Source: Pseudomonas fluorescens
GTDB lineage: Bacteria > Pseudomonadota > Gammaproteobacteria > Pseudomonadales > Pseudomonadaceae
Assembly (NCBI RefSeq): GCF_001902145.1
Contig: NZ_MRST01000017.1
Coordinates: 1-64,000 of the forward strand
Reading direction: 5' to 3'
DNA length: 64,000 nucleotides
Made by a program: the position numbers and the translations under genes. Below the pieces are notes generated by a model. The model had not been told where the DNA came from. It made no database searches and worked only from the letters and a program-made list of their open reading frames with translations. How positions within the stretch are numbered: position 1 is the first letter of the stretch; the number at the start of each line of letters is the position of its first letter. This document shows positions 18,843 through 39,962 of the stretch, in pieces.

Positions 18843-18847
18843 TGCTC

Positions 18848-19333
18848 ATGTACCGAGTCACCCTTGCTTTGCTGTTGCTCATGTTCGGGCTATTGGCGGG
18901 TTGCAGCGCCGTCTCGCCTTTTTCTAAGCTGACCAAGCTAGACATCGCGCTGACCGCCAGTGAACTCGTCAACCCGGATCTGCATGGCCGCCCCTCGCCA
19001 GTTGTGGTGCAGTTGATTGAGCTGCGCCAGGGCGCCGCTTTTGAACATGCCGACTTCTTCAGTCTGTATGGCAATGCGCAGCAGGCGCTGTCCAAGGACT
19101 GGGTAAACAGCGATGAACTTGAATTGCGCCCTGGGGACCGCCTGGGGCTCAAGCTTCGTATCGGACCTGACAGTCGTTTCGTGGGGGTGCTGGCGGCTTA
19201 TCGAGACCTGCCCAATGTCCAGTGGCGGCTGCTGATCCCACTGACCGTGCAACAACGTAACCGTGCCGATCTGGTATTGGATCAGACCGGTATCCGCGTT
19301 GCCGGCTCACTCGCCGGCCTGGAGGCGCAGTGA
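18848..19333 (+). CDS. tssJ: TssJ (SciN/Lip), outer-membrane lipoprotein
   Basis: 161 aa with a lipoprotein signal ending FGLLAGC, then a beta-sandwich protein: KLDIALTASELVNPDLHGRPSPVVVQLIELRQ and FVGVLAAYRDLPNVQWRLLIPL. It anchors the TssLM membrane complex to the outer membrane. AGGA lies 8 bases before ATG 18848; ATG 18842 overlaps the tagH stop but is too close to the site. tssK begins 1 bp after the stop. Confidence 0.93.
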   Translation: MYRVTLALLLLMFGLLAGCSAVSPFSKLTKLDIALTASELVNPDLHGRPSPVVVQLIELRQGAAFEHADFFSLYGNAQQALSKDWVNSDELELRPGDRLGLKLRIGPDSRFVGVLAAYRDLPNVQWRLLIPLTVQQRNRADLVLDQTGIRVAGSLAGLEAQ

Positions 19334-19334
19334 C

Positions 19335-20663: not shown

Positions 20664-21529
20664 ATGCCATGGAAAGTGAATGCACTCAAGATGAAAAAAC
20701 CGTCTTGCTCGACCGGGAAAGTCATGGGCCCGCCCAAGGACCATTAACGGACTTCCCGTCGCCGCCGCGTTATGAGCAACTGGAAGATCGCATGATCTAC
20801 GCCGGCCTCAGGCTCGAGACGCAAAGTTTCCAGGTTGGGCTCAACCCTATAGTCGACGCGGCCTGGGCGGTATTGTCCGAGGTTGTTGGGCTCAGGCGCT
20901 GCTCTGGCCGTGAAAGCTGGGACACGCTCAACGATCGGTTGTCGTTGGCTGTCAATCAATTTGAAACCCACGCTTTGCAGGGCGGCGTGGAAAGCAGCCA
21001 GATAATATCGGCGCGTTATGTGTTGTGCAGTGTGATTGATGAGGCGGTCTTGATAACTCCGTGGGGGGCGCAGAGCGAATGGTCGAAAAAGAGCCTGTTG
21101 AGCCGCTTTCATAACGAAACCTTCGGAGGCGAAAAGGTTTTCCAACTGCTGGAGCGGCTGTCGCGCGACCCCGTCAAGCACCTGGCGATGCTGGAGCTTT
21201 TGTACCTGTGCCTGTCTTTGGGGTTCGAGGGCAAATACCGGGTCATGGAGCGGGGCGCGTCACAACTTGAGGCTGTTCGTGATGCCTTGTATCGCCAGAT
21301 CAGGCATGTACGTGGGGAGCCTCTGAAGGCGCCGCTACTGCCTGCCATACAGGGGAAGGACCTGCACAAGCGGATCCGTGTCATTCCCGTCACCTGGTGT
21401 GTCGCATTCACCCTGACCTGTTTGTTGGCTCTGTATACAGGATTTGCCTGGGTACTGAGCAAGGAGCGATTGAATGCACTGCAACCCCTTCAATTCTCGG
21501 CGTCGGACCTGATTCGTACGCCCTTGTAA
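20660..21529 (+). CDS. tssL: TssL (DotU/IcmH), inner-membrane component
   Basis: 289 aa. The cytoplasmic domain has RYVLCSVIDEAVLITPWG, SLLSRFHNETFGGEKVFQLLERL and LLYLCLSLGFEGKYRV, then a single C-terminal membrane segment (VTWCVAFTLTCLLALYTGF). No periplasmic peptidoglycan-binding extension, so it is a short TssL. Partner of TssM and TssK. Confidence 0.95.
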   Translation: MNAMESECTQDEKTVLLDRESHGPAQGPLTDFPSPPRYEQLEDRMIYAGLRLETQSFQVGLNPIVDAAWAVLSEVVGLRRCSGRESWDTLNDRLSLAVNQFETHALQGGVESSQIISARYVLCSVIDEAVLITPWGAQSEWSKKSLLSRFHNETFGGEKVFQLLERLSRDPVKHLAMLELLYLCLSLGFEGKYRVMERGASQLEAVRDALYRQIRHVRGEPLKAPLLPAIQGKDLHKRIRVIPVTWCVAFTLTCLLALYTGFAWVLSKERLNALQPLQFSASDLIRTPL

Positions 21530-21544
21530 ACGCTGGAGCAATGA

Positions 21545-24500
21545 ATGAGCGCATTCTTCAAGAGGATGGGCGCCGTGCTGGGCAGGGTTTGGGTTTGGAG
21601 CCTTCTGCTGGCGCTTTCGTGTGCGGCACTCGTGTGGTTTTTAGGGCCGCTGTTGGCAGTGGATGACTATCGTATCTGGCAGGGGACGACTGCTCGCCTG
21701 CTCACCATCTGTATCGTGTTTTTGCTGTGGGGGCTGGTGATAGCGCTTACGGATACTGGTAGTGCTACCAGGCGCCAAAGGCCCCCGCGTCAGCAGCCGT
21801 TGAAGTGGGTCGAGGATGAGCGCCGTCAGGTAAGCGTTCGATTCAAAAACGCCGTGCAGCTGCTGAAAAAATCCAACCATTATGGCGTGCATAACGCAAG
21901 GTGGCGCCATGATCTGCCCTGGTACCTTTTGATTGGCGAGCCGGGCAGTGGCAAAACGCAGTTACTGGCCGCCGCCGGCTTGTCGTTGGCGCTCGACCCT
22001 GCCCAAAGGCGGCCAATGGGCAGTAGCGCTCATTGTGATTGGTACTTCGCCGCCGCAGGCGTACTCGTCGACACGCCGGGGCGCTACCTTACCCAGCCTG
22101 ACAGCTCAGTGGATGCCGCAGGTTGGGCAACCCTGCTCAATCTGCTCAGATGGCGGCGCCGAGTGCGTCCGCTGAATGGTGTGGTGGTGACGCTGTCGGT
22201 CGACACGTTGTTGAGCATCAACGAGTACGACCTGGATCATCACGCACGCCGTGTGCACTCCCGTTTGCAGGAGGTCCAGCAGACGTTGCATGTGGATGTG
22301 CCGATCTACCTGGTTTTGACCCAGGCCGATCGGTTGTCGGGATTCGCTGAGTTCTTCGACCTACCCCACGCAGAGAGTGCCGACAGCTTGCTTGGGCAGC
22401 GCTTGGACGCCCACGTCGACGATACTGACACTACGCAGGTTCGCCGGGCGGTCGAGCAATTGTTACAGCGCTTGAACAGTGAGCTGATTGGGCGATTGCA
22501 CCAGGAGCGCAATGTCGAGCGCCGGGGGCAGATGCTGGGGTTTACCCAGCAGGTGGCACGAATAGGTGAGCGCGTGAATCTGTTCGTTGACATGGCGTTT
22601 TCCTCTCATCGCTACCAACCCATCAATGGCCTGCGAGGGGTCTTCTTGACCTGCGCCGACGGCCGGCACCCGCGATTTGTGCAGGGCCTGTTCAGCCAGG
22701 CAATCTTTGCCGAAGCCGACCTTGCGGGCTTGCAGACCGAAGAACAGCAGCGAATCCGTTGGCGCCAGGGGCTACAGGCGATGGCCGTAGCCTTGGTTAT
22801 TGGCGGTGTCGGCGGGCTGTGGTGGCACAGTTATGCCGTCAACCATCAACGACTGGCGCAATTGGCGGTACTGGTAGCACTCCCGCCGCTTGGCTCGCAA
22901 GCCAGCGATGACAGCACGGCGCTGTTGGCACTGTTGGACGCGCGGCTGGCGGCGACCCGGGTTTTTCCCAGGTCGGCAGATGTGCGCCTGGTCGAGCACG
23001 TTGGGCTGTATCAGGGCGAGCTGAGTCGGCCCAGTGTCGAACACGCCTATGAGCAGGCACTGCACCAGCAATTGCTGCGTTGGATAACCGTCCAACTGGA
23101 CGAGCAGGTATATGCCAGCCTGGGAGATCGGGAACGGCTGTTGGACAATCTGCGCGCGTATTTGATGCTCAACTTGCGCGAGCGCCGTGAAACTGCTTGG
23201 CTGGCACAACATATGGCGAGCCTTTGGTCGGAGCGTTTTGCCGGGGACATGTCGACACAGAAGCGCCTGAATGATCACTTGGCGCGGCTGCTTGAACGAC
23301 CGTTTGTCGGGCCGCTCAACGAGGAACGGGTGGCTCAGGCTCGCGAAGCACTGAGGGGCGAGTCGTTGGTCGACGTGGTGTATCGGGTACTGCGCGAACA
23401 AGCCCGCGACCTGGAACCCTTGCGCTTGGCCGAGGGCAATGTATTCGCTGGCATCGCCCCCTCCGTACCGGGTTTCTATACCAAAAGGTATGTGCAGTAC
23501 TTTGAGACGCAGGGCCCACGGTTGGTTGACACCATTGCCCGGGATAACTGGGTGCTTGGTGGGGGTACCGACTTGGGCCATCAAGATTTGAGTCGGCTGA
23601 TGGCGCAATTGCAGCAGCGCTATTTCAGTGAATATGCCGATGCCTGGAGCGATGTTCTCGGCCGTATCTCGCTGCAAGAGACCGACAGCCTGCGCCAGGA
23701 CGCCGAGCAGCTCATGAGCCTGACTTCGGCCCAGTCCCCTTTGATTCGGTTGTTGCAACAGCTGCGTGAAAACACGCGTTTGCTGCCAGGTCATGAGCTG
23801 CTCGATAAAGTAGTGCAACATTCTGGAGACATGGCCAAGGCGGCGCTGGTGGCTGGGCCAGTGGCTTTTCCTGATGCTGCGCGGCGAGCGTTGCAACAAC
23901 GATTCGAGCCTTTGCATCAATTGCTGGATGAGCAGCACAACCCTGGAGCAGAGTTGACCCAGGCTTTGCGTCAGTTGGATGAACTGCACTTGCAACTGAC
24001 GGCACTGAACCGTGACAGCGTACCCGAGCAGGCAGCCTTCCTGCGTGCCAGGCAGCGTATGGAGGGGCAGCAGGATGTCCTGGGTAATCTGCGTGATGCC
24101 GCTGCGCGTCTGCCGCTACCCGTTGCCGGCTGGCTTGAGGGCCTGGCCGACGACAGTTGGCGGCATTTGCTGGAGCAGGCCTACGTGCATGTCAACCAAC
24201 GCTATCAGAGCGATGTACGTAGCCTTTACGCCAAGGCAATTGGCCGACGTTACCCGTTCCATGCCAACGCGAGCAATGACGTAGCCCTTCATGATTTTCA
24301 GGAGTTCTTCAAGCCACGAGGGGTGATGGCGCGCTTTTATGAGAACTACCTGCGGCCTTTTATCAGTGTCGACGGCGCTCGCTACCGATTGCGTGGGCTG
24401 GATGGCCAGAGCTTGCCGGTTTCGCGTTCGCTGTTGGAGCAATTGACAAAAACCCAGGCCATACGCCGCGGTTTTTTTACCGAGGACACGGAGGAGTTGT

Positions 24501-24892
24501 CTGTGCGGTTTACCGTGGCGCCCTACAGCCTGGACCCATCGATCAGTCGTGCGATTCTGCGCGTGGGTGACCAGCAATTGGAGTATCGCCACGGTCCCAT
24601 CGTACCCGTGGCGTTCCGTTGGCCCACCGATGCAGACAATGGGCGCAGCAGTCTGGTCCTGGAGAAAGGCACCGAGCAGCGACCCTTGGGAATCGAGAAG
24701 AACACCGGGGCTTGGTCACTGTTCCGGTTCCTGGATCAACTGCAGAGAGAGCCCGCCAGTGGGCAAAATGCTCAGGTTTTCAAGGCGGACCTCGCCGGCC
24801 TGCGCGTCAATTACCTGCTGACCAGCCAACGCACGCCTGTCCCGTTTGATGTAGATACATGGCGCACCTTTCGCTTGCCGGAGCAACTGTGA
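21545..24892 (+). CDS. tssM: TssM (IcmF/VasK), inner-membrane component
   Basis: 1115 aa, normal IcmF size. Two N-terminal membrane helices (about 15-37, 47-68), a cytoplasmic NTPase-like domain with intact Walker A GEPGSGKT (about 131-138) and VDTPGRYLT, then a third helix near 420 (AVALVIGGVGGLWWHSYAV). A long periplasmic part follows, ending in the DUF1215/C-terminal domains (YRHGPIVPVAFRWP). Forms the trans-envelope channel with TssL and TssJ. The last bases contain the GTG start of the phosphatase gene. Confidence 0.95.
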   Translation: MSAFFKRMGAVLGRVWVWSLLLALSCAALVWFLGPLLAVDDYRIWQGTTARLLTICIVFLLWGLVIALTDTGSATRRQRPPRQQPLKWVEDERRQVSVRFKNAVQLLKKSNHYGVHNARWRHDLPWYLLIGEPGSGKTQLLAAAGLSLALDPAQRRPMGSSAHCDWYFAAAGVLVDTPGRYLTQPDSSVDAAGWATLLNLLRWRRRVRPLNGVVVTLSVDTLLSINEYDLDHHARRVHSRLQEVQQTLHVDVPIYLVLTQADRLSGFAEFFDLPHAESADSLLGQRLDAHVDDTDTTQVRRAVEQLLQRLNSELIGRLHQERNVERRGQMLGFTQQVARIGERVNLFVDMAFSSHRYQPINGLRGVFLTCADGRHPRFVQGLFSQAIFAEADLAGLQTEEQQRIRWRQGLQAMAVALVIGGVGGLWWHSYAVNHQRLAQLAVLVALPPLGSQASDDSTALLALLDARLAATRVFPRSADVRLVEHVGLYQGELSRPSVEHAYEQALHQQLLRWITVQLDEQVYASLGDRERLLDNLRAYLMLNLRERRETAWLAQHMASLWSERFAGDMSTQKRLNDHLARLLERPFVGPLNEERVAQAREALRGESLVDVVYRVLREQARDLEPLRLAEGNVFAGIAPSVPGFYTKRYVQYFETQGPRLVDTIARDNWVLGGGTDLGHQDLSRLMAQLQQRYFSEYADAWSDVLGRISLQETDSLRQDAEQLMSLTSAQSPLIRLLQQLRENTRLLPGHELLDKVVQHSGDMAKAALVAGPVAFPDAARRALQQRFEPLHQLLDEQHNPGAELTQALRQLDELHLQLTALNRDSVPEQAAFLRARQRMEGQQDVLGNLRDAAARLPLPVAGWLEGLADDSWRHLLEQAYVHVNQRYQSDVRSLYAKAIGRRYPFHANASNDVALHDFQEFFKPRGVMARFYENYLRPFISVDGARYRLRGLDGQSLPVSRSLLEQLTKTQAIRRGFFTEDTEELSVRFTVAPYSLDPSISRAILRVGDQQLEYRHGPIVPVAFRWPTDADNGRSSLVLEKGTEQRPLGIEKNTGAWSLFRFLDQLQREPASGQNAQVFKADLAGLRVNYLLTSQRTPVPFDVDTWRTFRLPEQL

Positions 24893-25617
24893 AGGTGGCA
24901 GCCCCCTGGCGCAGCGCGGGTCGTACGCAGCAGGGGCAGGCGCGGCTGCGCAACGAGGATGCATTTCTGGACGACCCGCGCCGCAGTTGCTGGGCGGTTG
25001 CGGACGGCATGGGCGGGTATCGCAACGGGGATGTCGCCAGCCAATGGGTGGTCAGCCAGTTGGCTGCCGTGTCGGCTCAGGGCAACCTTGATCAGCGTAT
25101 CCAGGCCGTTCGCAGCTGTTTGCAAGACGTCAACCAAGGGTTGAGGCGTGCATGGACAGAACCTGGCGCACCTGGTGACGCGACGATGGGCAGTACCGTA
25201 GTTGCACTGCTGCTGGAGAAAGGCCGGGCGGCTTGTCTCTGGGCGGGAGACAGTCGCTGCTATCTATGGCGCGGGCAGAGTCTCTACCAATTGTCGAAGG
25301 ACCATTCGTTGCTGCAGCGGCTTATGGACGAACGTCATCTCAGTGTCGCACAAGCCCAGGCCTATCCTGATGCCAGAGCCTTGACCCGAGCCGTGGGCGC
25401 GCGTTCGCGATTGCACCTTGAGGCATTGGAACTCAGTACCCGCCCAGGGGATGTATTTTTATTATGCAGTGATGGCTTATACCAGGCCCTCAGCCATGTG
25501 GACCTGGGACGGGCGTTGAGTATGCAAACCCCCCAGCAGGCAGTGGAGCGACTATTCGCAGGGGCGTTGCGCAGGCCGGTACGCGATGACCTGACCGCGG
25601 TTGTCGTGCAGCCTTGA
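24889..25617 (+). CDS. stp1: PP2C-type Ser/Thr protein phosphatase of the T6SS locus (Stp1-like)
   Basis: 242 aa from GTG 24889, which overlaps the tssM stop (GTGA) and has GGAG upstream; ATG 24859 in the same frame is an alternative. PP2C metal-site motifs are present: RNEDAFL, VADGMGGY, GSTVVALLL, CLWAGDSRCYLW, LLCSDGLY and DDLTAVVV. It reverses Thr phosphorylation of FHA-type T6SS partners. Its stop overlaps the TTG start of the kinase gene. Confidence 0.92.
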   Translation: MKVAAPWRSAGRTQQGQARLRNEDAFLDDPRRSCWAVADGMGGYRNGDVASQWVVSQLAAVSAQGNLDQRIQAVRSCLQDVNQGLRRAWTEPGAPGDATMGSTVVALLLEKGRAACLWAGDSRCYLWRGQSLYQLSKDHSLLQRLMDERHLSVAQAQAYPDARALTRAVGARSRLHLEALELSTRPGDVFLLCSDGLYQALSHVDLGRALSMQTPQQAVERLFAGALRRPVRDDLTAVVVQP

Positions 25618-26456
25618 ACGCGTCGCCACAAGCCTTGCGTCTGCTGGTTGGGCGTTATCACCTTGAGCATGTCTTGGGCAGAGGTGGCATGGGCGTGGTG
25701 TATCGCGCGCGCGACCTGTTGCACGAGCAATTAGGCGAGCGCTGTTCGAACGTGGCGCTCAAGCTGGTGGACGAATCCATTTCCCAATGTCCCGATGCGC
25801 ATGTGTTGTTGTACAACGAGTTTGCGTTGACCCGCAGCCTTCGGCACGACCACGTGGTACGGACGTTCTCGTTCGAAGTCGACACACACAGCCAGGTCGC
25901 GTTCTTCACCATGGAGTTGTTGCAGGGGCTGACCCTGGACCGTCTCCTTCTGGAATGCCCTTATGGGTTGCCCTGGCGTGAACTGCAACCCATCGCCGTG
26001 CAGTTGCTGGATGCCTTGGTCTACACCCACCAGCAAAACGTGCTGCACGGTGACCTCAAACCAGCCAATGTCATGGTGGGCGAGGAGGGCGTGCGCTTGT
26101 TCGACTTTGGGCTGGGCCATGCCGCCGGGCAGGCTGGGGTGGGTTTGCCGAGTGTCAGCCGCAGTCGTTTCAATGCCTGGACACCTGCCTACGCAGCCCC
26201 GGAACTGTTGGCCGGCGGGGCGTTGACCGCGGCCGCCGACTTGTACGGTATGGCCTGCATCCTGTACGAACTGGCCCATGGCAAGCGCGTTGGCGAACGC
26301 TGCGCAATGGACCGACTGTCCCGGCCTGCGCAGTTGCCCAGGCATTGCTGGGCGGCATTACAGGCTGCGTTGGCGGTGGACCCGCAGCACCGAAGCATAA
26401 CGGTCGCCGAGTTGCGCCAAGTCATGAGGCGCAACCGGCCACGCTGGCGCTTGTAG
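25614..26456 (+). CDS. stk1: Ser/Thr protein kinase of the T6SS locus (Stk1-like)
   Basis: 280 aa, TTG start overlapping the phosphatase stop. Hanks-type kinase: glycine loop GRGGMGVVYRA, the VALKLV lysine, catalytic loop HGDLKPANV, DFG as FDFGLG, and AAPE as YAAPELLA. The catalytic-loop Arg is replaced by Gly (HGD, not HRD), so this is a non-RD kinase that may not need activation-loop phosphorylation. No transmembrane or extracytoplasmic domain. It should phosphorylate the FHA protein or its partners. Last gene of the T6SS operon. Confidence 0.9.
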   Translation: MNASPQALRLLVGRYHLEHVLGRGGMGVVYRARDLLHEQLGERCSNVALKLVDESISQCPDAHVLLYNEFALTRSLRHDHVVRTFSFEVDTHSQVAFFTMELLQGLTLDRLLLECPYGLPWRELQPIAVQLLDALVYTHQQNVLHGDLKPANVMVGEEGVRLFDFGLGHAAGQAGVGLPSVSRSRFNAWTPAYAAPELLAGGALTAAADLYGMACILYELAHGKRVGERCAMDRLSRPAQLPRHCWAALQAALAVDPQHRSITVAELRQVMRRNRPRWRL

Positions 26457-27084: not shown

Positions 27085-27404
27085 AGTGAGGTTCTCTCCT
27101 TTGGCCTGTTGTCGTTCCAGGCAAGATTCCCTGAGTGCGTACCCATTATCAGACAGGTTGTAACATCCTTTAACACGCACAAACCGCGCGGATGATACCG
27201 ACTCAGACAGCCTTAGGGGATGATTCAAGTCAGAAAGTTCGATAAATCGGTAGGGAATTAGTCTAGCAACCTTGCATTCACTGGCAAAAAATCGGGGCAG
27301 GGACGGGCATAAAGGCTTTCGCTTCGGCTAGCAGGGCGTGTAGCGTTAGCGAGTGTTTCCGGCCCTGATTGTCAGCGCAGTCGGTGACAGGCAGAGGACG
27401 GCCC

Positions 27405-29474
27405 ATGGCGCAAACCCTGTTCAAGCTCTTCCTCACCCAGCGCCTGGCGGTCCTGGCCAGCGCGGAGTCGTTGCGTGCGATTCGGGAAGGACTGCTGTGG
27501 ATCCTGCCATGCCTGTTGGTGTCCGCCGGTTTCCTGATTCTGTCCGAATGCGCCCGGGCGCTGGGGTTCGATCCGCAGGTGGTGAGTTTTCTGGCGGGGT
27601 TGCACAAACAGATCAGTTCGGTAATTCCACTGCTGGTCGCGGCCTCCATCGGTTATATGTTGGCGATTCAACACCGTTTGCCACAGCTGCCGGTCGCCTT
27701 TCTGTGCCTGGCCCATGTGGTGGTCGCCACCTTCGTGCTGCGTGAGTACCCTCGTGCTTCGGCCACTTTCCTACTGTTTATTGCCATTGCTTCGCCCTTG
27801 ATCAATGTGCCGGCCATTGCCTGGTTGCACCGCTTTCGCTGGACGCGCCTGGTCAACCAAGACCTGGTAGGCCATAACCTCAAGGGCACTATCAACATGG
27901 TGCTGCCCGGCGCACTCACGGCCTTGTCGTTGGTGGCGGTGTTGTCGTTGCTGCTGTTGATCCCCCATGTGGCGCAAATTCGGGGGCCGCAGGCGCTTGA
28001 TGCGTTGCAGGCGCCTTACGGCAGTGGGTTGTTTGTCACACTGATGAATTCACTGCTGTGGTTCTTCGGCATTCACGGTGTGTATGCCATGCAGCCGTTA
28101 TTCGATGCACTGGACCAGGCGGTAGCGCTCAATGGCGCAGCGTTGGCGGCGGGGGAGCCGGTGCTGTACTTGCTCAACAACGGCTTGCTGGGCAGTTTTG
28201 CGTTTATCGGGGGTTCGGGCGCAACCTTATGCCTGCTGCTGGCGATCCTGCTGTTTTCCAAAAGCCAGTCCATGCGCTTGCTGGCGGTAGCGAGTTTGCC
28301 GTTGTCGTTATTCAATGTCAGCGAGGTGCTGTTGTTCGGTTTGCCGATCATCCTCAACCCGCGCCTGTTTATACCGTTTCTACTAGTACCGGCGTTCAAC
28401 GCGATGGTGGCGTTGATGGTGGTACAACTGGGCTGGGTGTCGCCGGCGGTGGCCAGCGTGCCGTTTACCGCCCCGGTGCTGCTCAATGCATACCTCAGCA
28501 CCCACGGCGACGTGGCGGCGGTGGTGTTGCAGATTGTTCTGCTGGGTGCCGGGACGCTGGTGTATGCGCCCTACGTGAGAGCGATTCATCGCCAGTCCAG
28601 CGATGGCGGCACGGTGTATCTCAAATCTTTGGACATGACGTTTCGCGGCCTTGAGGAAAAAGGCCGTCTGCTGGAGTTCGACCCGGTGCTGGCCACCCAC
28701 CAGACATTGGCCCGCCAGGCCGCTGAGTTGAACCGCATCCAGCAGATCAGCGATTACGAGTTCTACCTTGAGTTTCAACCCCAGGTCTCCACCCGCACCG
28801 GTTTGTGCACCGGGTGCGAGGCGCTGATGCGCGCCCGGGACAGCCAGGGCACGGTGCATTCGCCGTGGGAATTCCTGCAATGGCTGGCGCACGCCAGGCT
28901 GATGCCGGACGTGGATGTGTGGGTGGCATCCCAGGCAGTGCGCCAGTATCAGAAATGGCAGAAGGTGGGTTTTGAACTGCCGATGACCATCAATATTTCC
29001 AGCACCACGCTCAAGGACGCCGCCTATGGCGACCGCCTGGTGGAAATTCTTGGCCAGGCCCGTGGGCAAGTTTCAGTGGAAATTACCGAAGACGCGCTGG
29101 TCAGCGACATCCCGGCCACCCGCCAGACCATCCAGAAGTTGCAGGCCATGGGGGCCAAGGTCTATCTGGATGATTTTGGCACTGGGTTTTCTGCGTTGAG
29201 CTATCTGCACCAGTTTCCTGTGGATTTCATCAAGATCGACCGCAGTTTTGTGGTTGCCCAGCACGACCCTAAAGGCGCCCAGGTGCTCACCGGTATGTTG
29301 CGCTTCTGCGAGGCCTTGGACCTGGGTGTGATAGTGGAAGGGGTTGAGACGGCTGAGCAATTGGCGTTCTTGAGTAACGGGCCTGAGTTGTTTATCCAGG
29401 GCTGGTATTTCAGCAAGGCACTGCCTGGGGATCAGTTGCCGCGCTTTGTGCTTGAGCGCAGGGCGTTGGTCTGA
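27405..29474 (+). CDS. PTS EIIC-like membrane domain fused to EAL c-di-GMP phosphodiesterase
   Basis: 689 aa. Residues about 20-400 form a lactose/cellobiose-type EIIC (COG1455-like): around ten helices, FFGIHGVYAMQP, GGSGATLCLL and FNVSEVLLFGLPIILNP (conserved Glu kept, usual EP is EV). A short linker leads to a complete EAL domain (about 450-685) with CEALMRAR, NISSTTL, EITEDAL, DDFGTGFSALSYL, KIDRSFV, EGVET and QGWYFSKALP, so c-di-GMP hydrolysis is expected. No EIIA or EIIB is nearby, so the EIIC half more likely senses a sugar than transports it. ATG 27405 follows AGAGGA. Confidence 0.88.
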   Translation: MAQTLFKLFLTQRLAVLASAESLRAIREGLLWILPCLLVSAGFLILSECARALGFDPQVVSFLAGLHKQISSVIPLLVAASIGYMLAIQHRLPQLPVAFLCLAHVVVATFVLREYPRASATFLLFIAIASPLINVPAIAWLHRFRWTRLVNQDLVGHNLKGTINMVLPGALTALSLVAVLSLLLLIPHVAQIRGPQALDALQAPYGSGLFVTLMNSLLWFFGIHGVYAMQPLFDALDQAVALNGAALAAGEPVLYLLNNGLLGSFAFIGGSGATLCLLLAILLFSKSQSMRLLAVASLPLSLFNVSEVLLFGLPIILNPRLFIPFLLVPAFNAMVALMVVQLGWVSPAVASVPFTAPVLLNAYLSTHGDVAAVVLQIVLLGAGTLVYAPYVRAIHRQSSDGGTVYLKSLDMTFRGLEEKGRLLEFDPVLATHQTLARQAAELNRIQQISDYEFYLEFQPQVSTRTGLCTGCEALMRARDSQGTVHSPWEFLQWLAHARLMPDVDVWVASQAVRQYQKWQKVGFELPMTINISSTTLKDAAYGDRLVEILGQARGQVSVEITEDALVSDIPATRQTIQKLQAMGAKVYLDDFGTGFSALSYLHQFPVDFIKIDRSFVVAQHDPKGAQVLTGMLRFCEALDLGVIVEGVETAEQLAFLSNGPELFIQGWYFSKALPGDQLPRFVLERRALV

Positions 29475-29505
29475 TGACCGACCCTATCTACCTGGCACCC
29501 CGATC

Positions 29506-29695
29506 CAACTGTGGGAGCTGGCTCGCCGGCGATGACCATAGGTACCTACATAACTTTGGTGCGACGCTGGACCTGTGGCGAGGGAGCTTGCTCCCGTGAC
29601 GGACTGACAGCCGACGCTGATCTAACTGGCGCACCGCGATCTAAATGTGGGAGCTGGCTTGCCTGCGAAGATGGCCTGACAGTCAACACAGTTGG
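29506..29695. repeat. Cluster of REP-type palindromes ahead of the dispersed repeat
   Basis: Three short REP-like units: TGTGGGAGCTGGCTCGCC at 29513, GCGAGGGAGCTTGCTCCCG near 29578 and TGTGGGAGCTGGCTTGCCTG near 29647. They belong to a different REP class from the GAGCAAGCTCGCTCC REPINs. The same TGTGGGAGCTGGCTTGCCTG unit opens the second full repeat copy at 40070. Confidence 0.7.
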
Positions 29696-30010
29696 ACCGT
29701 GTACATATCCATTCCTGCGGTAACGGCCACTTAGGGTTCCGCTTTTACAGCGGCTCACTTTTGAAAAGCGCAAAAGTAAGCAAAACGCTCTTGCCCCACC
29801 ACTCGGCACCTCGCTTAGGCTCGGTGTACCCGTAATCCGCCAGTGATTTGGGGGGCCGCCGCCACGCGCCATCCATGGCGCGGGGCGGCTAAACCGGCAT
29901 CCCTGCCGGTTTACCCCCCAAATCCCTGTCGAATTCCGGCCAGCGTGGTTTAACGGGGCGCCTAAGATCAAAAGCAGATCAAGAGCGGCTCGCTTCGCAT
30001 CGTGGTTACC
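29696..30010. repeat. Dispersed structured repeat, full copy A
   Basis: Conserved head (GTACATATCCATTCCTGCGG, GGTTCCGCTTTTACAGCGGC, AAAAGTAAGCAAAACGCTC, CACTCGGCACCTCGCTTAGG) and conserved tail (GGCCAGCGTGGTTTAACGGG, then the 34-nt block at 29977-30010) surround a variable centre. The centre (29841-29928) folds as an outer stem GATTTGGGGGG/CCCCCCAAATC with two inner hairpins: 29856-29888 (GCGCCAT/ATGGCGC) and 29891-29912 (AAACCGGCA/TGCCGGTTT). It lies between the EIIC-EAL gene and the copper promoter. Reading frames inside it are not credible genes. Confidence 0.88.
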
Positions 30011-30044
30011 GTTGAGCTTACAGAGTTATGTAGATACCTATGCT

Positions 30045-30120
30045 GCGATGGCGGCCTGACAGCCGGCACAGTTATACCGAGTACATATCCATTCCTGCGG
30101 TAACGGCTACTTAGGGGGCC
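30045..30120. repeat. Truncated head of a further dispersed-repeat copy (copy E)
   Basis: GCGGCCTGACAGCC, ACCGAGTACATATCCATTCC and GCGGTAACGGCTACTTAGGG repeat the head of copies A and B, then the match stops at 30117, about 55 bp before the copper-type promoter. Confidence 0.8.
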
Positions 30121-30175
30121 GCCCTGAAGCCATCACCTCCCATCCCCAAGCCTTGAAAGAATTTTCCTACAGGTG

Positions 30176-30206
30176 TTGACCTTGCCACTACGGGAACCTT
30201 TAGGCT
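30176..30206 (+). promoter_or_regulatory. CueR/MerR-type copper-responsive promoter
   Basis: The -35 TTGACC (30176-30181) and -10 TAGGCT (30201-30206) are separated by 19 bp, the overlong spacer typical of MerR-family promoters. The spacer carries the interrupted CueR-like arms ACCTTGCC and GGGAACCT around ACTAC; the left arm is as in CueR sites, the right arm is imperfect. Transcription should start near 30213, upstream of the first enzyme gene. Copper induction by CueR is known for the matching P. aeruginosa operon. Confidence 0.75.
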
Positions 30207-30253
30207 TTTTTCCGAGTATGCCCAACCACAAAAACAAGATTCAGGGGTTATCA

Positions 30254-31249
30254 ATGGATACTGCTGCCCTGCAACAACGCTCGGATTCCGATCTGTTCAC
30301 CACCGCCTCGCGGCTGATGGCGAATGCCTTGGAAACCGGCGCCAACTTCACCCAGGTCACCCGCGCGCTGGAAGCGCTGCTCGCGGTGACTCGGCAAGGC
30401 CTGGCGGGAGACGCCGACGCCTACGCGCACTACCAGTCAGCCCTGCTGCAACTGCACATTCCAGGTGACCCGCGCACCGAACCGACCCGGCGCTGGATGG
30501 CCAGCGAGGTCTACCGCGTCGAAGATGAGTTCGCCGCCGACGTGCCGGGTTTCACCGCGCTGCCGGTGGAGGAGTTCCGCCAACAAGTGGACGCTGAAAT
30601 CGCAGCACGCAGCCGGGTCAACCACCCGATGTCGGTGCACCTGTTCCAAGGTACGCCGCCGATGCAGGATGTGCGCTTCTTCCTGGAGCATCACTGGACC
30701 CGTTCCTACAACTTCTACAGCCTGCTGGCCGAACTGGCCTTTCGCTTCGAAGCCATCGAGGACGCCTCGGTGTTTTACCGCAACCTCTACGGTGAAGCGG
30801 GGGCTGAGACACCGGAGCGTTCGCACCCGGCGATGCTCGCCCATCTGATGGAGTATTTCGATATTCCGCTGGCCATCGACTTCCCCGCGCTGCATCCGCT
30901 GGAAAAAGCCTACCTGAATAATCGCATTCGCTGTGTGCGCCACACGGATGTCGCCTGGGGCCTTGCGCTGCTGTATGCGGTCGAGTCTGTCAGTTGCGTC
31001 AACCATCGGCGCATCTACGAGCTGTTGCAGCGCCTAGACGTTCCAGAGCAGCCCAGCGAATTCCACCGCTTGCATGGCACCCAGGATGAGATCGACACCG
31101 AGGAAATGTGGGCACTGATTGCCAAGTTCGCCAGCGAGGAGGGCTTTCAGCGCACGTTCATGCGCGCACTGAAGCGCCACTTTGAAATCAACAAGGCTTA
31201 CTTCGACAGCCTGTGGCAGCAGATGCAGGCCCAACGCCTGTCTGCCTGA
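30254..31249 (+). CDS. Haem-oxygenase-like non-haem iron enzyme, first of two (fluopsin C pathway)
   Basis: 331 aa, an all-helical HDO-fold protein. Likely iron ligands are Glu and His in LLAELAF, LYGEAGAETPERSHPAMLAHL, LLYAVESVSCVNHRR and FHRLHGTQDEID, the last with an H-x3-D motif. In the P. aeruginosa fluopsin C pathway two such enzymes remove the carboxyl and alpha carbon of cysteine through decarboxylation, N-hydroxylation and methylene excision. The start at 30254 has CAGGGG seven bases upstream; ATG 30218 is in frame but has no site. First gene behind the CueR-type promoter. The flc letter of each paralogue cannot be assigned here. Confidence 0.85.
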   Translation: MDTAALQQRSDSDLFTTASRLMANALETGANFTQVTRALEALLAVTRQGLAGDADAYAHYQSALLQLHIPGDPRTEPTRRWMASEVYRVEDEFAADVPGFTALPVEEFRQQVDAEIAARSRVNHPMSVHLFQGTPPMQDVRFFLEHHWTRSYNFYSLLAELAFRFEAIEDASVFYRNLYGEAGAETPERSHPAMLAHLMEYFDIPLAIDFPALHPLEKAYLNNRIRCVRHTDVAWGLALLYAVESVSCVNHRRIYELLQRLDVPEQPSEFHRLHGTQDEIDTEEMWALIAKFASEEGFQRTFMRALKRHFEINKAYFDSLWQQMQAQRLSA

Positions 31250-31288
31250 ACGACCTGCGATCCGAAAACAAAAATAATGGAGCACATG

Positions 31289-32275
31289 ATGAGCCCACGT
31301 AATTTTTCCCTGCCGCAATTGCAGAATATTCACACCGCCGAAGCCCGTTTGTTGGCGGAAGCCTTGAAGCCGGACGCGACGTTCAATCGCATCGAAATTG
31401 CCGCCAATATGCTGCGCGCCCTGTGCGAGACCGGCCAACGTGGCGACGCCGCAAATGCAGCGCAGTGCCAGCAATTGCTGTACATCCTGTCGCTGAGCGA
31501 TGACGTTGCTACAGCCTCGACCCGGCGCTGGCTGGCCAATGCCGTCTATAGCGTGCAAGAGCGTTTCATGCCGTCAGTCGACCTGGCATCGCCCTTGTCC
31601 GAGGCTGGTTTCCAGCAACGCCTGGAAGAGCAGATTGCCGCGCAGTCGCGGGAAAACCATCCGATGTCGCAGTATGTGTTTGAAGGCAAAGCTTCTCGCG
31701 AGCAACTGCAGGTGTTTTTGCGCCACCAATGGTTCCGCACGTACCGCCTGTACCGGGATGCCGCCGACCTGTTGGTCAACCTGACCGATGTGGACGAGGC
31801 CGCCGCCCTGGCGCGTTATCTCTACGGCGAGTTGGGCGAAGAAGACGAACGGCGCTCCCACCCTCGGCTGTTGGCCAAGCTGCTTGCCGCCGTGGGCCTG
31901 AATGCCGATTTCGAGGCGCTCTCGACGATGCCCGAGGAAATCGCCTACCTCAACAACCGCGCACGCTGTTTCCGCAACCCAGATGTCGGCTGGGGCCTGG
32001 CGGTGTTCTACATCACCGAACTGGTGGTGCCGGGCAACCACGGCAAGCTGTACAACGCCCTGCGCAACGCCGGCTTGAGCCAGGACGACGCGGAGTACTA
32101 CGAAGTGCACATCAGCCTGGTGCCGCCGCGGGCCAAGCGTGAATGGGCACTGATCTCACGGCGTATTCCGGACCTCGGGTTCCAGAATGCGTTCCTGACG
32201 TCGTTGGCCGAGCACTTCCGGCTGGAGCGGGCTTACTACGATGCAGTCTGGGAAGAAGTACAACGTGTGAAGTAG
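31289..32275 (+). CDS. Haem-oxygenase-like non-haem iron enzyme, second of two (fluopsin C pathway)
   Basis: 328 aa, clear paralogue of the preceding gene along its whole length (TRRWLANAVYSVQERF, ENHPMSQYVFEG, LRHQWFRTYRLYRDAADLL, LYGELGEEDERRSHPRLLAKLL, YITELVVPGNHGKLY). The segment aligned to the first paralogue's FHRLHGTQDEID is YYEVHISLVPPR: the His is kept but the following Asp is lost, so the metal ligand set differs. I take ATG 31289 as start because GGAG is seven bases upstream; ATG 31277 is also in frame. Co-transcribed, 39 bp after its neighbour. Confidence 0.85.
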   Translation: MSPRNFSLPQLQNIHTAEARLLAEALKPDATFNRIEIAANMLRALCETGQRGDAANAAQCQQLLYILSLSDDVATASTRRWLANAVYSVQERFMPSVDLASPLSEAGFQQRLEEQIAAQSRENHPMSQYVFEGKASREQLQVFLRHQWFRTYRLYRDAADLLVNLTDVDEAAALARYLYGELGEEDERRSHPRLLAKLLAAVGLNADFEALSTMPEEIAYLNNRARCFRNPDVGWGLAVFYITELVVPGNHGKLYNALRNAGLSQDDAEYYEVHISLVPPRAKREWALISRRIPDLGFQNAFLTSLAEHFRLERAYYDAVWEEVQRVK

Positions 32276-32304
32276 CCCTCCCTGGACAACCCGAGTAACC
32301 CGAC

Positions 32305-33738
32305 ATGCCAAGTCATATCACTGAATCCCGTATCCACGGGGGCGCTTACTCGTCCCCGGAATTTGCTGCGATCTTCTCTGATGCCAATCAGGTGCAGAAG
32401 TGGCTCGATGTTGAAACAGCGCTGGCGGCGACCCAGGCGCAGATGGGCCTCATCCCCCACGAGGCCGCCCGGGAGATTGCCCGGGTAGCCAGCGTGGAAC
32501 TGCTGGACCTCGACGCGTTGGGGCGCGAAGGCCTGGAAACCGGGCACATCCTGGTGCCGACCCTGCGCGCCTTGCAGGGGTTATGCGCCGATGGGCTGGG
32601 CGAATACGTGCATTACGGCGTGACCACCCAGGACATCCTCGACACCGGGCTGATTCTGCAAATTCGCGATGCCTGGGGCCTGGTGGTGCAGCGCCTGTGC
32701 GGGATCCGTGGGCATCTGCTCACGCTCGCCCTGCGCCATAAGCACACGCCGATGGTCGCCAGGACCCATGGGCAGCACGCACTGCCCACCACGTTCGGCT
32801 ACAAGGTGGCGGTGTGGGTCGACGAGATCGATCGGCACCTTGAACGCTTTGACGAAGCCTACGCCCGGGTGATGGTCGGCAACCTGACCGGCGCCGTGGG
32901 CACCTTGGCCGGGCTTGGCCCGCAGGGGTTGGAAGTGCAGCGCCGCACCCTGGAAAGCCTCGGCCTGTCGGCACCGTTGAGCAGTTGGCACAGCGCCCGC
33001 GACCGCATCCTGGAAGCGGCGTGGTTGCTGGTGCAGGCGTCGGTGACCTTGGGCCGTGTCGCCAATGAGATCTACCACCTGCAGCGCACCGAGATCGACG
33101 AAGTGCGCGAAGGGCGGCGAGCCGGGCAAGTGGGGAGTAGCACCATGCCCCACAAGCAAAACCCATCGACGGTGGACCTGATCAGCGCGCTGTCGCGGCT
33201 GGTGCGCGCGCAGATGGTTGCGCTGACCGACGCCGCTTTCCAGATGCACGAGCGTGACGGCACCACCTGGCGCATCGAATGGGCGGCCTTACCCGAGCTG
33301 TTCATTTACGCCGGTGCGTTGCTCGCTCGTATGGAAGGCTTGCTGCTGGCTGGGCTGCAGGTGCGTGAAGCGCGCATGCGCAGCAACCTGGACTTGCTGG
33401 GCGGGCTGATCCTGTCGGAGCGCGTGATGCTTGCGCTGGCGCCTCGGTGTGGCAAGCAGACGGCCCATCATCTGGTGCACGACATCGCCCTGCAAGCCCA
33501 GGACGCGGGCGTTTGCTTTCGCGACGCGCTGCTTGGCGACCCTCGGCTGCGCGGTTGTTTCAGCCCGCAAACGCTCGATGACTTGCTTGACCCGACAGCC
33601 TACACGGGGCTTGCGGCCGAGATGGTCGATCTGGTGGCAACTAAAGCACGACCTCGCGCTTCAGGCGATGGCGCTGAAGCAGTGATGGCAACCCAAGGCA
33701 ATACCAGTCAGTCCCTGTACGCTACGGAGGGTATGTGA
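32305..33738 (+). CDS. Fumarase/adenylosuccinate-lyase superfamily lyase, first of two (fluopsin C pathway)
   Basis: 477 aa. Superfamily motifs in order: ETGHILVPTLRAL, YVHYGVTTQDILDT, RTHGQHALPTTFGYK and the flexible catalytic loop GSSTMPHKQNPS. Closest in style to PurB/PcaB proteins. In the fluopsin pathway two lyases act, one joining cysteine to fumarate and one releasing fumarate again; which one this is cannot be read from sequence. The canonical GQHALP substrate loop is intact here, unlike in the second lyase. Overlaps the next gene by one base (TGATG). Confidence 0.87.
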   Translation: MPSHITESRIHGGAYSSPEFAAIFSDANQVQKWLDVETALAATQAQMGLIPHEAAREIARVASVELLDLDALGREGLETGHILVPTLRALQGLCADGLGEYVHYGVTTQDILDTGLILQIRDAWGLVVQRLCGIRGHLLTLALRHKHTPMVARTHGQHALPTTFGYKVAVWVDEIDRHLERFDEAYARVMVGNLTGAVGTLAGLGPQGLEVQRRTLESLGLSAPLSSWHSARDRILEAAWLLVQASVTLGRVANEIYHLQRTEIDEVREGRRAGQVGSSTMPHKQNPSTVDLISALSRLVRAQMVALTDAAFQMHERDGTTWRIEWAALPELFIYAGALLARMEGLLLAGLQVREARMRSNLDLLGGLILSERVMLALAPRCGKQTAHHLVHDIALQAQDAGVCFRDALLGDPRLRGCFSPQTLDDLLDPTAYTGLAAEMVDLVATKARPRASGDGAEAVMATQGNTSQSLYATEGM

Positions 33739-35186
33739 TGGATGCGCAAACATTGGAAATGACAGCCCGTGCGTCTTGCACCGCACGTTCGGACCACCCG
33801 GGCTTTGATCATGACGGCGAGCAATGCCGCCACGAACACAGCCACATCCTCGATTCGAAAACCCACGGTTCAGGTTATGCCGGCCCGCAGAGCCGCAAGA
33901 TCTTCTGCAGTCATTGTCGCCTGCAACGTTGGCTGGACGTGGAAGCTGCGCTGGCCATGGCCCAGGCCGATGTCAACATCATCCCGCGCGAGGCGGCCCT
34001 GGAGATTGAAAAGGCCGCGTTGCTATCGGGCATCAATGTGCGCCAACTGGCCGAGGGGGTGGTGGCCACTGGGCATTCGCTGATGCCATTGCTGAGCGCT
34101 CTGCAAAAAAACTGCAGCCCCAGTGCCCGTGAATACGTGCATTACGGCGCTACCACCCAAGACATCCAGGACACCGCCCAGTCCCTGGAGATGCGCGATG
34201 TTCTTGATGCGATGGACCAGGCCCTGGAGACTTTGCTGGGCAAGTTGTCGACCCTGGCCGATGCGCACCGTGACTCGCTGATGGTCGCCAGGACCCACTC
34301 GATTCCCGCCTTGCCGACCACCTTCGGGCTGAAGGTCGCCGGATGGATCGATGAGCTATTGCGCCACCGGCAGCGCTTGGCCGAAGCCCGCCAGCGTGTA
34401 TTGGTGGTGCAACTGTTCGGCGGGGTCGGCACCATGGCGGCGTTCGGCCCGGACGCCATGCCGATGCTGGAGCGTTTTGCCCAGCGCTTGTCGCTGCAAG
34501 TGCCCCTGACGGGCTGGCATGTGTCCCGTGACCGCGTTGCGGAGTTCGTCAGCACCCTGGCCATGGTCACCGCCTCGTTGGCCCGCGTAGCCGATGAAAT
34601 CCGTACGCTCAATCGCTGGGAAATCGCTGAAGTGGAAGTGGGCTGGAGCGACCAGCAGATCGGCAGCAGCACCATGCCGCACAAACGCAACCCCGAAGGC
34701 TGCGAGCAGGTGGTGGTGTTGGCACGGCTGGCCAAGGCCCAGGTCATGCTCGCGCTGGACGCGATGATTCTTGAGCATGAGCGCGATTACCGTGGTACGC
34801 GGTTGGAGTGGTGCGCAGTCGCGGACGTTTCCCACTATGCACTGATGGCGCTCTCGATTCTGACCGAGACCATCGATGGGCTCACCGTGAATGTGCAGAA
34901 GATGGAAGGCACCGCCCAGGCCTATGGCGATGCCATCTGCACCGAAGCGGTGGTGTTCGAAATGGCGCGCAAGCTGGGCAAGAGCAGCGCCTACCAGATC
35001 ATCTTCGAAGTATCCCAGGCCAGCCAGCGCAATCACGTGTCGATCCGCGAGGCAATCGAGGCCGATGCGCGGGTGCGTGCTGTCATGAATGACGACACCC
35101 TGGCACGGCTGTTCGAGCCCAGGACCCACCTGGGGATGTCCGAACGCATCGTCGATAACGTGCTCTCCAAACTCGCAGCCCGCTAA
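33738..35186 (+). CDS. Fumarase/adenylosuccinate-lyase superfamily lyase, second of two (fluopsin C pathway)
   Basis: 482 aa. After a divergent His/Cys-rich N-terminus (CRHEHSHILDSKTHG, FCSHCRLQRW) come the family motifs ATGHSLMPLLSAL, YVHYGATTQDIQDT, RTHSIPALPTTFGLK and GSSTMPHKRNPEG. Compared with the first lyase the loop after RTH is SIPALP instead of GQHALP, suggesting a changed substrate. GGAGG sits eight bases before ATG 33738, which shares a base with the preceding stop codon. Presumed to handle the fumarate-linked cysteine intermediate at the other end of the pathway. Confidence 0.87.
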   Translation: MDAQTLEMTARASCTARSDHPGFDHDGEQCRHEHSHILDSKTHGSGYAGPQSRKIFCSHCRLQRWLDVEAALAMAQADVNIIPREAALEIEKAALLSGINVRQLAEGVVATGHSLMPLLSALQKNCSPSAREYVHYGATTQDIQDTAQSLEMRDVLDAMDQALETLLGKLSTLADAHRDSLMVARTHSIPALPTTFGLKVAGWIDELLRHRQRLAEARQRVLVVQLFGGVGTMAAFGPDAMPMLERFAQRLSLQVPLTGWHVSRDRVAEFVSTLAMVTASLARVADEIRTLNRWEIAEVEVGWSDQQIGSSTMPHKRNPEGCEQVVVLARLAKAQVMLALDAMILEHERDYRGTRLEWCAVADVSHYALMALSILTETIDGLTVNVQKMEGTAQAYGDAICTEAVVFEMARKLGKSSAYQIIFEVSQASQRNHVSIREAIEADARVRAVMNDDTLARLFEPRTHLGMSERIVDNVLSKLAAR

Positions 35187-35231
35187 TCACTGATCTCTGA
35201 ACAGATTTGCAAATTCATCAAGGAGCGACAG

Positions 35232-36305
35232 ATGTCCAACGTTATGGAAGTTGATAAAGCCAAGGTCCAACAATTCTCGGCGCGCATCATGGAGGACTAC
35301 GGCAACACGCTGCGCGGCGCGATGCTCTACATCGGCGACCAGCTCGGTTTGTTCAAGGCTTTGGCCGACGGCCAGGCGGTGACCCTGGAAGAGTTGGCGC
35401 ACAAGACCGGCTACAACGCACGTTACTTGCGCGAATGGCTGGGCAGCATGGCCACCGGCAATTATGTGACCTACGACGCGCAAACCCGCCGTTACCAAAT
35501 GCCCGCCGAGTTTGTGCCGGTGCTGGCCGATGAAGACTCGCCGTATTTTGCCGGTGGCATTATCCAGCTGAGCGTGCCGTTCGTGAGCATGGCGCCCAAG
35601 GTCATCGAGGCCTTTCGCCATGGCGGCGGTTGCGCTGAAGAGGCGTTTCCGCTGGAAACCTGGAAAGGCATGGAGCGCATGACCATGCCTTGGTACAAGC
35701 ACTACCTGGTCCAGCACTGGATTCCATCCCTGGACGGCGTCGAAGAGAAGCTCAAGACCGGCGGCAGTGTGCTGGATTTCGGCTGCGGTGCGGGCCTGGC
35801 AGCGATCACCATGGCCAAGGCCTACCCCGAGGCGCGCATTGTCGGCTGCGATTTCCACCTGCCTTCCATCGAGTTGGCGCGGGCCAACGCCGAAGCGGCC
35901 GGTGTCGGTGACCGGGTGCAATTCGAGGTGAACGACTCCGATGCCTTGCGCGGCCAGCAATTCGACTTCGTGACCACCTTTGTGGTGATCCACGATGCCA
36001 CCGACCCTCAGCAGATGCTCAAGGATTTGCGCGCCGCCACCGCCGAAGACGGTACCTACCTGATGGTGGAGCTCAACCTGTCCGAAGAACTGCACGAGAA
36101 CATGAACCTGTTCGGGCGCGTCATGTACCCCCAGAGCACCCTCTATTGCATGACCTGTTCGCTGTCCCACGGCGGGGCAGGGCTGGGGGCATTCATGGGC
36201 GAGAAGCGTGCCCGCCAGATGGCTGAGGCAGCCGGGTTCAGCCGCTTTCGTAAAGTGCCTTCGCAGTGGCCACCGATGCCGGCGCTGTTCGAACTCAAGC
36301 CTTGA
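35232..36305 (+). CDS. SAM-dependent methyltransferase (fluopsin C pathway)
   Basis: 357 aa. N-terminal winged-helix dimerisation part (QLGLFKALADGQAVTLEELAHKTGYNARYLREWLGSM), then a class I Rossmann methyltransferase with motif I VLDFGCGAGLAAI, acidic VGCDF and post-I FVVIHDATDPQQMLKD. Fluopsin C carries N-methyl thiohydroxamate ligands, which a methyltransferase must supply. CAAGGAGCGACAG precedes the start; the gap to the lyase is 45 bp. Last gene of the copper operon. No terminator is obvious in the 110 bp that follow. Confidence 0.86.
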   Translation: MSNVMEVDKAKVQQFSARIMEDYGNTLRGAMLYIGDQLGLFKALADGQAVTLEELAHKTGYNARYLREWLGSMATGNYVTYDAQTRRYQMPAEFVPVLADEDSPYFAGGIIQLSVPFVSMAPKVIEAFRHGGGCAEEAFPLETWKGMERMTMPWYKHYLVQHWIPSLDGVEEKLKTGGSVLDFGCGAGLAAITMAKAYPEARIVGCDFHLPSIELARANAEAAGVGDRVQFEVNDSDALRGQQFDFVTTFVVIHDATDPQQMLKDLRAATAEDGTYLMVELNLSEELHENMNLFGRVMYPQSTLYCMTCSLSHGGAGLGAFMGEKRARQMAEAAGFSRFRKVPSQWPPMPALFELKP

Positions 36306-39332: not shown

Positions 39333-39962
39333 ATGAAATACTGGATGGTGTTGTGGCTGTTGATGGCCACCGCGGCAACGGCGGCGCCACGCAGCCAGGG
39401 GCAGGCGGGTGAGTTTGATTTCTATGTGCTATCGCTTTCGTGGTCACCCACGTTTTGCCTCACGCACCCAGGCAACGAACAATGCTCAGGTAAAGGCTAC
39501 GGCTTTGTGCTGCATGGTTTGTGGCCGCAATACGCGCGGGGAGGGTGGCCGGCGTCCTGTACACCGCAGACACGCTTGAGCGAGGCAGAAATGGACAAGG
39601 GCGCGGCGCTGTTTCCCACCCGCGCGCTGCTCAAGCATGAGTGGGCCAAGCATGGCACCTGCAGTGGGCTGGAGCCGTTGGAGTATCTGGAGAAGACCGA
39701 TGTGGCGCTCGGTGCGGTTGCCATTCCGCAGCAACTGCAGCCGTTCAATACGCCGCCGTCATTGCAGGCCAATGAGATCGAGGCGCTGTTTCGCGAGAGC
39801 AACCCACGCATGGGCAACCACGGTATGGCGGTGATCTGCAAGGGCAAGGTACTGTCGGAAGTACGGGTGTGCCTGACCAAGGATCTGGCGTTTGCGGGTT
39901 GCCCGCGCAGTGTGAAGAGCCAATGTCGGGGGGGCGATATTCGTATTCCCACCCAGCGCTGA
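39333..39962 (+). CDS. Ribonuclease T2 family, secreted
   Basis: 209 aa with a signal peptide (MKYWMVLWLLMATAATAAP). The two catalytic CAS motifs are FVLHGLWPQ and KHEWAKHGTC, both with their His residues intact, and six or more Cys suggest disulfides. Acts on RNA in the periplasm, like E. coli RNase I. AAAGGAATACCGGG precedes the ATG. Confidence 0.92.
   Translation: MKYWMVLWLLMATAATAAPRSQGQAGEFDFYVLSLSWSPTFCLTHPGNEQCSGKGYGFVLHGLWPQYARGGWPASCTPQTRLSEAEMDKGAALFPTRALLKHEWAKHGTCSGLEPLEYLEKTDVALGAVAIPQQLQPFNTPPSLQANEIEALFRESNPRMGNHGMAVICKGKVLSEVRVCLTKDLAFAGCPRSVKSQCRGGDIRIPTQR

Follow-up and report, generated by a model that had tools for sequence, protein, structure and literature searches.

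A probable copper-switched flcEDCBA operon for fluopsin C, with MexPQ-OpmE as unlinked candidate exporter, in a fluorescens-group Pseudomonas

We analysed a 64,000-nucleotide stretch of a Pseudomonas fluorescens genome (assembly GCF_001902145.1, contig NZ_MRST01000017.1, positions 1 to 64,000; hereafter the window), in which five consecutive genes at 30254-36305 very probably constitute an orthologous flcEDCBA operon that makes the ligand of fluopsin C, most likely switched by copper through CueR, with the MexPQ-OpmE pump, encoded on another contig of the same genome, as its most likely exporter. According to the proposed pathway, FlcB would join cysteine to fumarate, FlcE would take C1 off as CO2 to produce an oxime, FlcD would excise C2 as formate, and FlcC would cut the succinate arm away, freeing the thiohydroxamate. 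FlcA would then perform the N-methylation, two ligands would bind one copper, and MexPQ-OpmE, under a CueR-type box of its own, would export the ligand or its copper complex. We infer from sequence the fluopsin C chemistry of the window strain, the binding of CueR to the promoter boxes described below and the cargo of MexPQ-OpmE.

The five genes follow one another on the + strand and encode proteins of 331, 332, 477, 482 and 357 amino acids in frames that are all open, with ATG 30254 as the most likely start of flcE and 36305 as the final stop of the operon. Profile searches placed the first two products in the haem-oxygenase-like oxidase (HDO) family PF14518, above the cut-off in both cases, with FlcD also matching HOASN; the next two matched PF00206 and PF10397, and the last matched PF13847. 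This bore out the order HDO-HDO-lyase-lyase-methyltransferase that an earlier note on this DNA had given. The comparison with P. aeruginosa FlcA-E was run against strain PA7 (L015), where the five genes are likewise collinear, in the same order and in one transcriptional direction, and where FlcE, FlcD, FlcC, FlcB and FlcA are 80.9, 76.7, 77.5, 78.1 and 85.2% identical to those of the window, FlcA being the best conserved. Together with the FlcD site residues described below, these identities uphold the proposal of a fluopsin C-type operon.

We named the genes flcE, flcD, flcC, flcB and flcA because of their positions and the reactions set out in PMC11363339 and PMC11419262; the latter agrees with the assignment of FlcB by position. 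The haem-oxygenase-like oxidase FlcE (30254-31249) is predicted to convert S-succinyl-cysteine to the oxime by decarboxylation and N-oxygenation (PMC11363339), and the mononuclear-iron haem-oxygenase-like dioxygenase FlcD (31277-32275) to cut the oxime carbon out as formate. Of the two aspartase/fumarase-type lyases, FlcC (32305-33738), identified as such by position, would break the C-S bond and so free the thiohydroxamic acid, and FlcB (33738-35186) would add cysteine to fumarate, while the S-adenosylmethionine-dependent methyltransferase FlcA (35232-36305) is predicted to carry out the N-methylation step. The end of flcC and the start of flcB share base 33738, a one-base overlap as in a coupled operon. 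Both lyases score above the cut-off of the adenylosuccinate-lyase subfamily model NF006500, and the second-best model for FlcB, the cysteine-adding synthase XcbD, was matched under its cut-off. A different HDO/lyase pathway was rejected: FlcE matched the BesC and CADD models, and both lyases matched the models for nitrosuccinate lyase (CreD type) and XcbD, solely under the curated cut-offs. A fast-evolving or damaged FlcE was ruled out by its identity of 81% to PA7.

Window FlcD matched the Protein Data Bank entries 3bjd and 8w1q/9b9m/9b9n/9b9o, the latter four at an E-value of 4e-163, and 249 of 328 residues are identical to those of the crystallised FlcD. At 15 positions for iron binding, helix closure and substrate contact, numbered as in PMC11363339, the alignment showed 15/15 identity to the crystallised enzyme in the window protein and in 13/13 named relatives. 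All residues of the subgroup motif (E181, H191, E244, H274, V278 and R281) and of substrate contact are present in the window protein; according to that paper, the V278/R281 motif is strongly predicted solely in the FlcD subgroup, one of 150 groups. Since the protein retains all six residues with which the crystallised enzyme touches the succinate arm, the substrate of FlcD should still be the succinyl-cysteine oxime. The FlcE residues aligned to the FlcD motif positions read E-H-E-H-D-D in 14/14 FlcE homologs, PA7 included; within the FlcE sequence HGTQDEID (window 31073-31096), this alignment places an Asp at the last metal-ligand position, replacing the usual HDO His. A structure of FlcE was sought for checking this metal site, and none was found. 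The placement of the strain in the fluorescens group was supported by FlcD identities of 98-99% to P. lactis and P. paracarnis and a GyrB identity of 99.9%.

Upstream of flcE lies a CueR/MerR-type promoter (30176-30206, + strand), whose -35 element starts at 30176. It consists of TTGACC, a 19-bp spacer and TAGGCT, the layout of CueR/MerR promoters. Its left half-site fits, and its right half-site is imperfect, with GGGAACCT where the dyad would read GGCAAGGT. In the window the pattern (at most 3 mismatches) has a single match, against 0/100 dinucleotide shuffles; a related pattern (at most 1 mismatch) occurs at three copper-linked places across the 5.97-Mb genome, namely at flc, copZ and mexPQ-opmE, each time without a mismatch. 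The copZ box begins 60 bp before the copZ ATG, and cueR, with a TIGR02044 match above cut-off, adjoins copA. Scored against a consensus that we wrote ourselves and modelled on a P. aeruginosa-like dyad, the box before flcE reaches at least 20 of 25 in 15 of the 17 flc loci, namely in 12 of 14 loci scanned together and in G099, G361 and G296; the random-window control was drawn from the same loci and carries true sites in its high tail, where 52 of its 2000 windows scored 19 or above. The dyad of the Pseudoduganella flc operon is symmetrical, has a spacer of 18 bp and scored 16, and the best score in Lysobacter was 11. CueR regulation of PA3515-3519 and of mexPQ-opmE is reported in P. aeruginosa. 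At motif level the window flc operon is most likely under copper (CueR) control, and the copper link that had been drawn from the promoter holds at that level.

The earlier note had described MexPQ-OpmE as absent. The genes were indeed not found in the neighbourhood of the window flc operon, but the same genome carries intact MexP, MexQ and OpmE orthologs on contig C21 (92, 98 and 90% identical to the flc-linked P. haemolytica copies), with a pump box of CueR type that begins 75 bp before mexP. The absence therefore applies to the neighbourhood and not to the genome, and the conclusion that self-protection or export must differ is not supported, as the pump is present and unlinked. The neighbouring metal protein fared similarly: in PA7, the small metal protein beside flc matched CopZ-type copper-chaperone models under the curated cut-off; no such protein was found beside window flc, and the closest one found in the genome is the CopZ that adjoins copA, at 38% identity.

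Gene presence and order across loci were taken from tblastn comparisons, which covered 15 flc-positive Pseudomonas genomes (that of the window, 11 named ones, and G099, G296 and G361). The pump was found in all 15. In some it is truncated by the end of the locus: L011 and L012 show no MexP and only part of MexQ, L013 and L014 only part of MexP, and the stretch from G296 stops within the pump genes. Twelve of the genomes have pump genes just before flc, and flc and pump are on different contigs in the window genome, P. lactis and P. paracarnis. In all three split genomes a CueR-type box is retained on both separated pieces. Pairwise protein identities among 15 genomes that have both, split ones included, correlate at r 0.986 between Flc and pump, compared with 0.55 between Flc and GyrB and 0.61 between pump and GyrB. 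The Flc and pump identities track each other far better than either tracks GyrB, which suggests that the two spread horizontally as a unit and that the pump is a candidate exporter.

Individual pairs illustrate this pattern. Flc and pump are both 98% identical between the window and P. paracarnis, and between the window and P. gessardii GyrB is 99.4% identical, yet Flc is 81.0% and the pump 81.6%. Relative to PA7, Flc of the window is 79.4% and that of P. gessardii 83.3% identical, about as distant as the window and P. gessardii are from each other. Flc of P. fluorescens ISL-62 shares 82.4% identity with the Flc of Pseudoduganella, a betaproteobacterium whose GyrB is 57.9% identical to its own, and 80.7% with the Flc of the window, where GyrB is 98.9% identical. 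When the Flc tree is rooted at its midpoint, Pseudoduganella is joined by ISL-62 and P. spelaei, P. gessardii falls with PA7 and G361, and P. fontis belongs with the window clade. These comparisons suggest that flc spread horizontally and that, inside Pseudomonas, the pump went with it; an ancient duplication followed by differential loss would be the alternative to horizontal transfer of flc. Plasmid carriage was rejected, as FlcD had no match at E 1e-10 among 72,556 plasmid records. In a close relative, G238 (GyrB 99.6%), a 19.9-kb stretch was examined in which opmE is followed by repeat-like sequence and then by an approximately 83-codon 3′ part of flcA (L055 10300-10900), and the whole genome gave no FlcD or FlcE match at E 1e-60. 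We read this remnant as a deletion scar, in a relative that kept the pump and lost flc.

Collinearity with P. haemolytica is lost between opmE and the flc promoter, and the split of flc and pump in the window genome is well supported. At the junction lies an intergenic repeat tract (29475-30155, without assigned strand), of which relatives and other parts of the window have related copies. In G099 long copies stand between opmE and flcE; P. paracarnis has such copies after opmE, and P. libanensis after the EAL gene. Recombination between repeats would fit these positions and is a plausible route of the split. A proven repeat-mediated break was discarded, since after opmE in the window genome and P. 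lactis there are only tract fragments of at most about 35 bases, and further copies lie at unrelated places. The idea that a simple reciprocal exchange brought opmE up against the DNA behind the EAL gene of relatives was likewise rejected, the pump stretch having no match of at least 300 bases to the EAL stretches of G296, G405 and G407.

How far the pump belongs to flc was weighed in a sample of 398 Pseudomonas genomes, several of which are, by their contig coordinates, also among the named loci (L006=G236, L007=G263, L011=G143, L013=G186, L018=G191). FlcD (E at most 1e-60) is present in nine, and OpmE (E at most 1e-170) in 13 of the same 398, comprising 9/9 flc-positive and 4/389 flc-negative genomes; the Fisher p of 1.1e-15 ignores relatedness and overstates independence, the flc-positive genomes sitting in few lineages. 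MexPQ-OpmE might instead be only a general copper-stress multidrug pump that is associated with flc through shared CueR control and does not export fluopsin, a reading that we consider possible but doubtful. It gains from the reported role of MexPQ-OpmE as a multidrug pump in P. aeruginosa (PMC7922089), from the four flc-negative genomes, G238 among them, that retain the pump with CueR-type boxes before mexP (17-19 of 25), and from two genomes outside the genus: Pseudoduganella buxea and Lysobacter enzymogenes carry flc and no OpmE ortholog, their best matches being 34 and 37% identical, so that the pump is not needed universally. A general pump should be common, however, yet at the threshold used only 13 of 398 genomes have it, nine of them flc-positive, and the co-divergence of Flc and pump (r 0.99, against 0.55 between Flc and GyrB, with the three split genomes counted) also speaks against it. 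In P. aeruginosa, modelling reportedly found MexPQ-OpmE unlikely to export copper itself, PMC11419262, which mentions both fluopsin and OpmE, reports co-induction, and the physiological cargo of the pump appears unsettled.

Two further explanations concern the operon itself, and both are improbable. An flc ortholog could make a related thiohydroxamate, with another N-substituent or amino-acid source, and the identities of 77-85% leave room for shifted specificity, the structure comparison covering the FlcD sites; retention of the six succinate-arm contacts in FlcD and the conservation of FlcA, the highest of the five, speak for fluopsin C. Slightly less probable still is an operon that is silent or decaying in the window lineage after its separation from the pump. 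The fate of flc in G238 and the imperfect right half-site would fit such decay, but the five frames are open, Flc and pump are equally close to those of P. paracarnis, and the boxes persist on both pieces of the three split genomes. Several points do weigh against an operon that is copper-switched, makes fluopsin C and is served by MexPQ-OpmE. Besides the pump-only genomes, the two pumpless flc genomes, the lineage clustering and the self-written consensus already given, a backwards-read control pattern found one match in the genome, and the flc box scores 21/25 compared with 24/25 in PA7. Because its right half-site is less symmetrical than the PA7 dyad, flc induction could be weaker, or CueR affinity lower, in the window clade than in PA7. 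Fluopsin C itself is a product predicted for the window strain from its genes.

The orthologous, copper-switched operon with an unlinked exporter remains the reading that we prefer. With rather less assurance, though still inclining towards it, we propose that flc and MexPQ-OpmE form a horizontally moving, copper-triggered antibiotic-and-export cassette in which the pump is a dedicated fluopsin exporter, with selection keeping the two together by way of the shared CueR switch despite rearrangement, and that loss of the biosynthetic half can leave pump-only, presumably resistant relatives. The association makes the pump a testable candidate for the export step, as few Pseudomonas genomes have it, its divergence parallels that of flc, and it retains the same kind of copper box when unlinked. 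Such a role could also explain the copper control of a 'multidrug' pump in P. aeruginosa.

Other genes surround the operon in the window and its relatives. In the split lineage, a segment upstream of flc (window 18003-26456) holds genes for type VI secretion (FHA C-terminal domain, VasE, DotU, IcmF) and, after them, genes for a PP2C phosphatase and a protein kinase. The gene at 27369-29474, now the upstream neighbour of flc, encodes a fusion of a phosphotransferase system (PTS) EIIC membrane domain with an EAL (cyclic di-GMP phosphodiesterase) domain, and in two of the eight genomes searched, that of the window included, its match contains an in-frame TAG. Downstream, at 39333-39962, lies a ribonuclease T2 family gene, and the same family was called downstream of flc in 3/13 named loci, the gene calls being greedy and in places antisense. 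Three further PF14518 haem-oxygenase-like genes exceed the family cut-off on contigs C11 and C22 of the window genome. In five loci (L011, L012, L013, L014 and L062), opmE and flcE are separated by a CopA-type copper ATPase and a CopZ-like chaperone, and several of these loci have additional CueR-type boxes. In Pseudoduganella buxea (L016 5420-8555) a copper-ATPase-like gene is convergent with flcA and shares 48% identity with the CopA linked to flc in P. fontis.

The window flc operon belongs to a known kind of system and extends a known copper-antibiotic pathway to a P. lactis-like species of the fluorescens group. It shares with flcEDCBA of P. aeruginosa (PA3519-PA3515, fluopsin C biosynthesis), compared through PA7, the enzymes, their order, the FlcD motif and a CueR-type promoter, and differs in that pump and CopZ1 are not adjacent, the promoter dyad is less symmetrical and the proteins are 77-85% identical. 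The flc loci of P. haemolytica, P. libanensis and P. khavaziana are closer, with 94% Flc and 95% pump identity and a common downstream flank; there mexPQ-opmE lies directly upstream of flc, and not on a separate contig as in the window genome. P. gessardii, P. fontis, P. spelaei and P. fluorescens ISL-62 have the same operon and pump, with a CopA-type copper ATPase and CopZ between opmE and flcE, yet their Flc proteins are about 81% identical to those of the window despite GyrB identities of 92.5-99.4%, and they are scattered in the Flc tree. Nitrosuccinate lyase and XcbD-type lyases, finally, share the lyase superfamily with FlcC and FlcB, both of which fall under the curated cut-offs of those enzymes.

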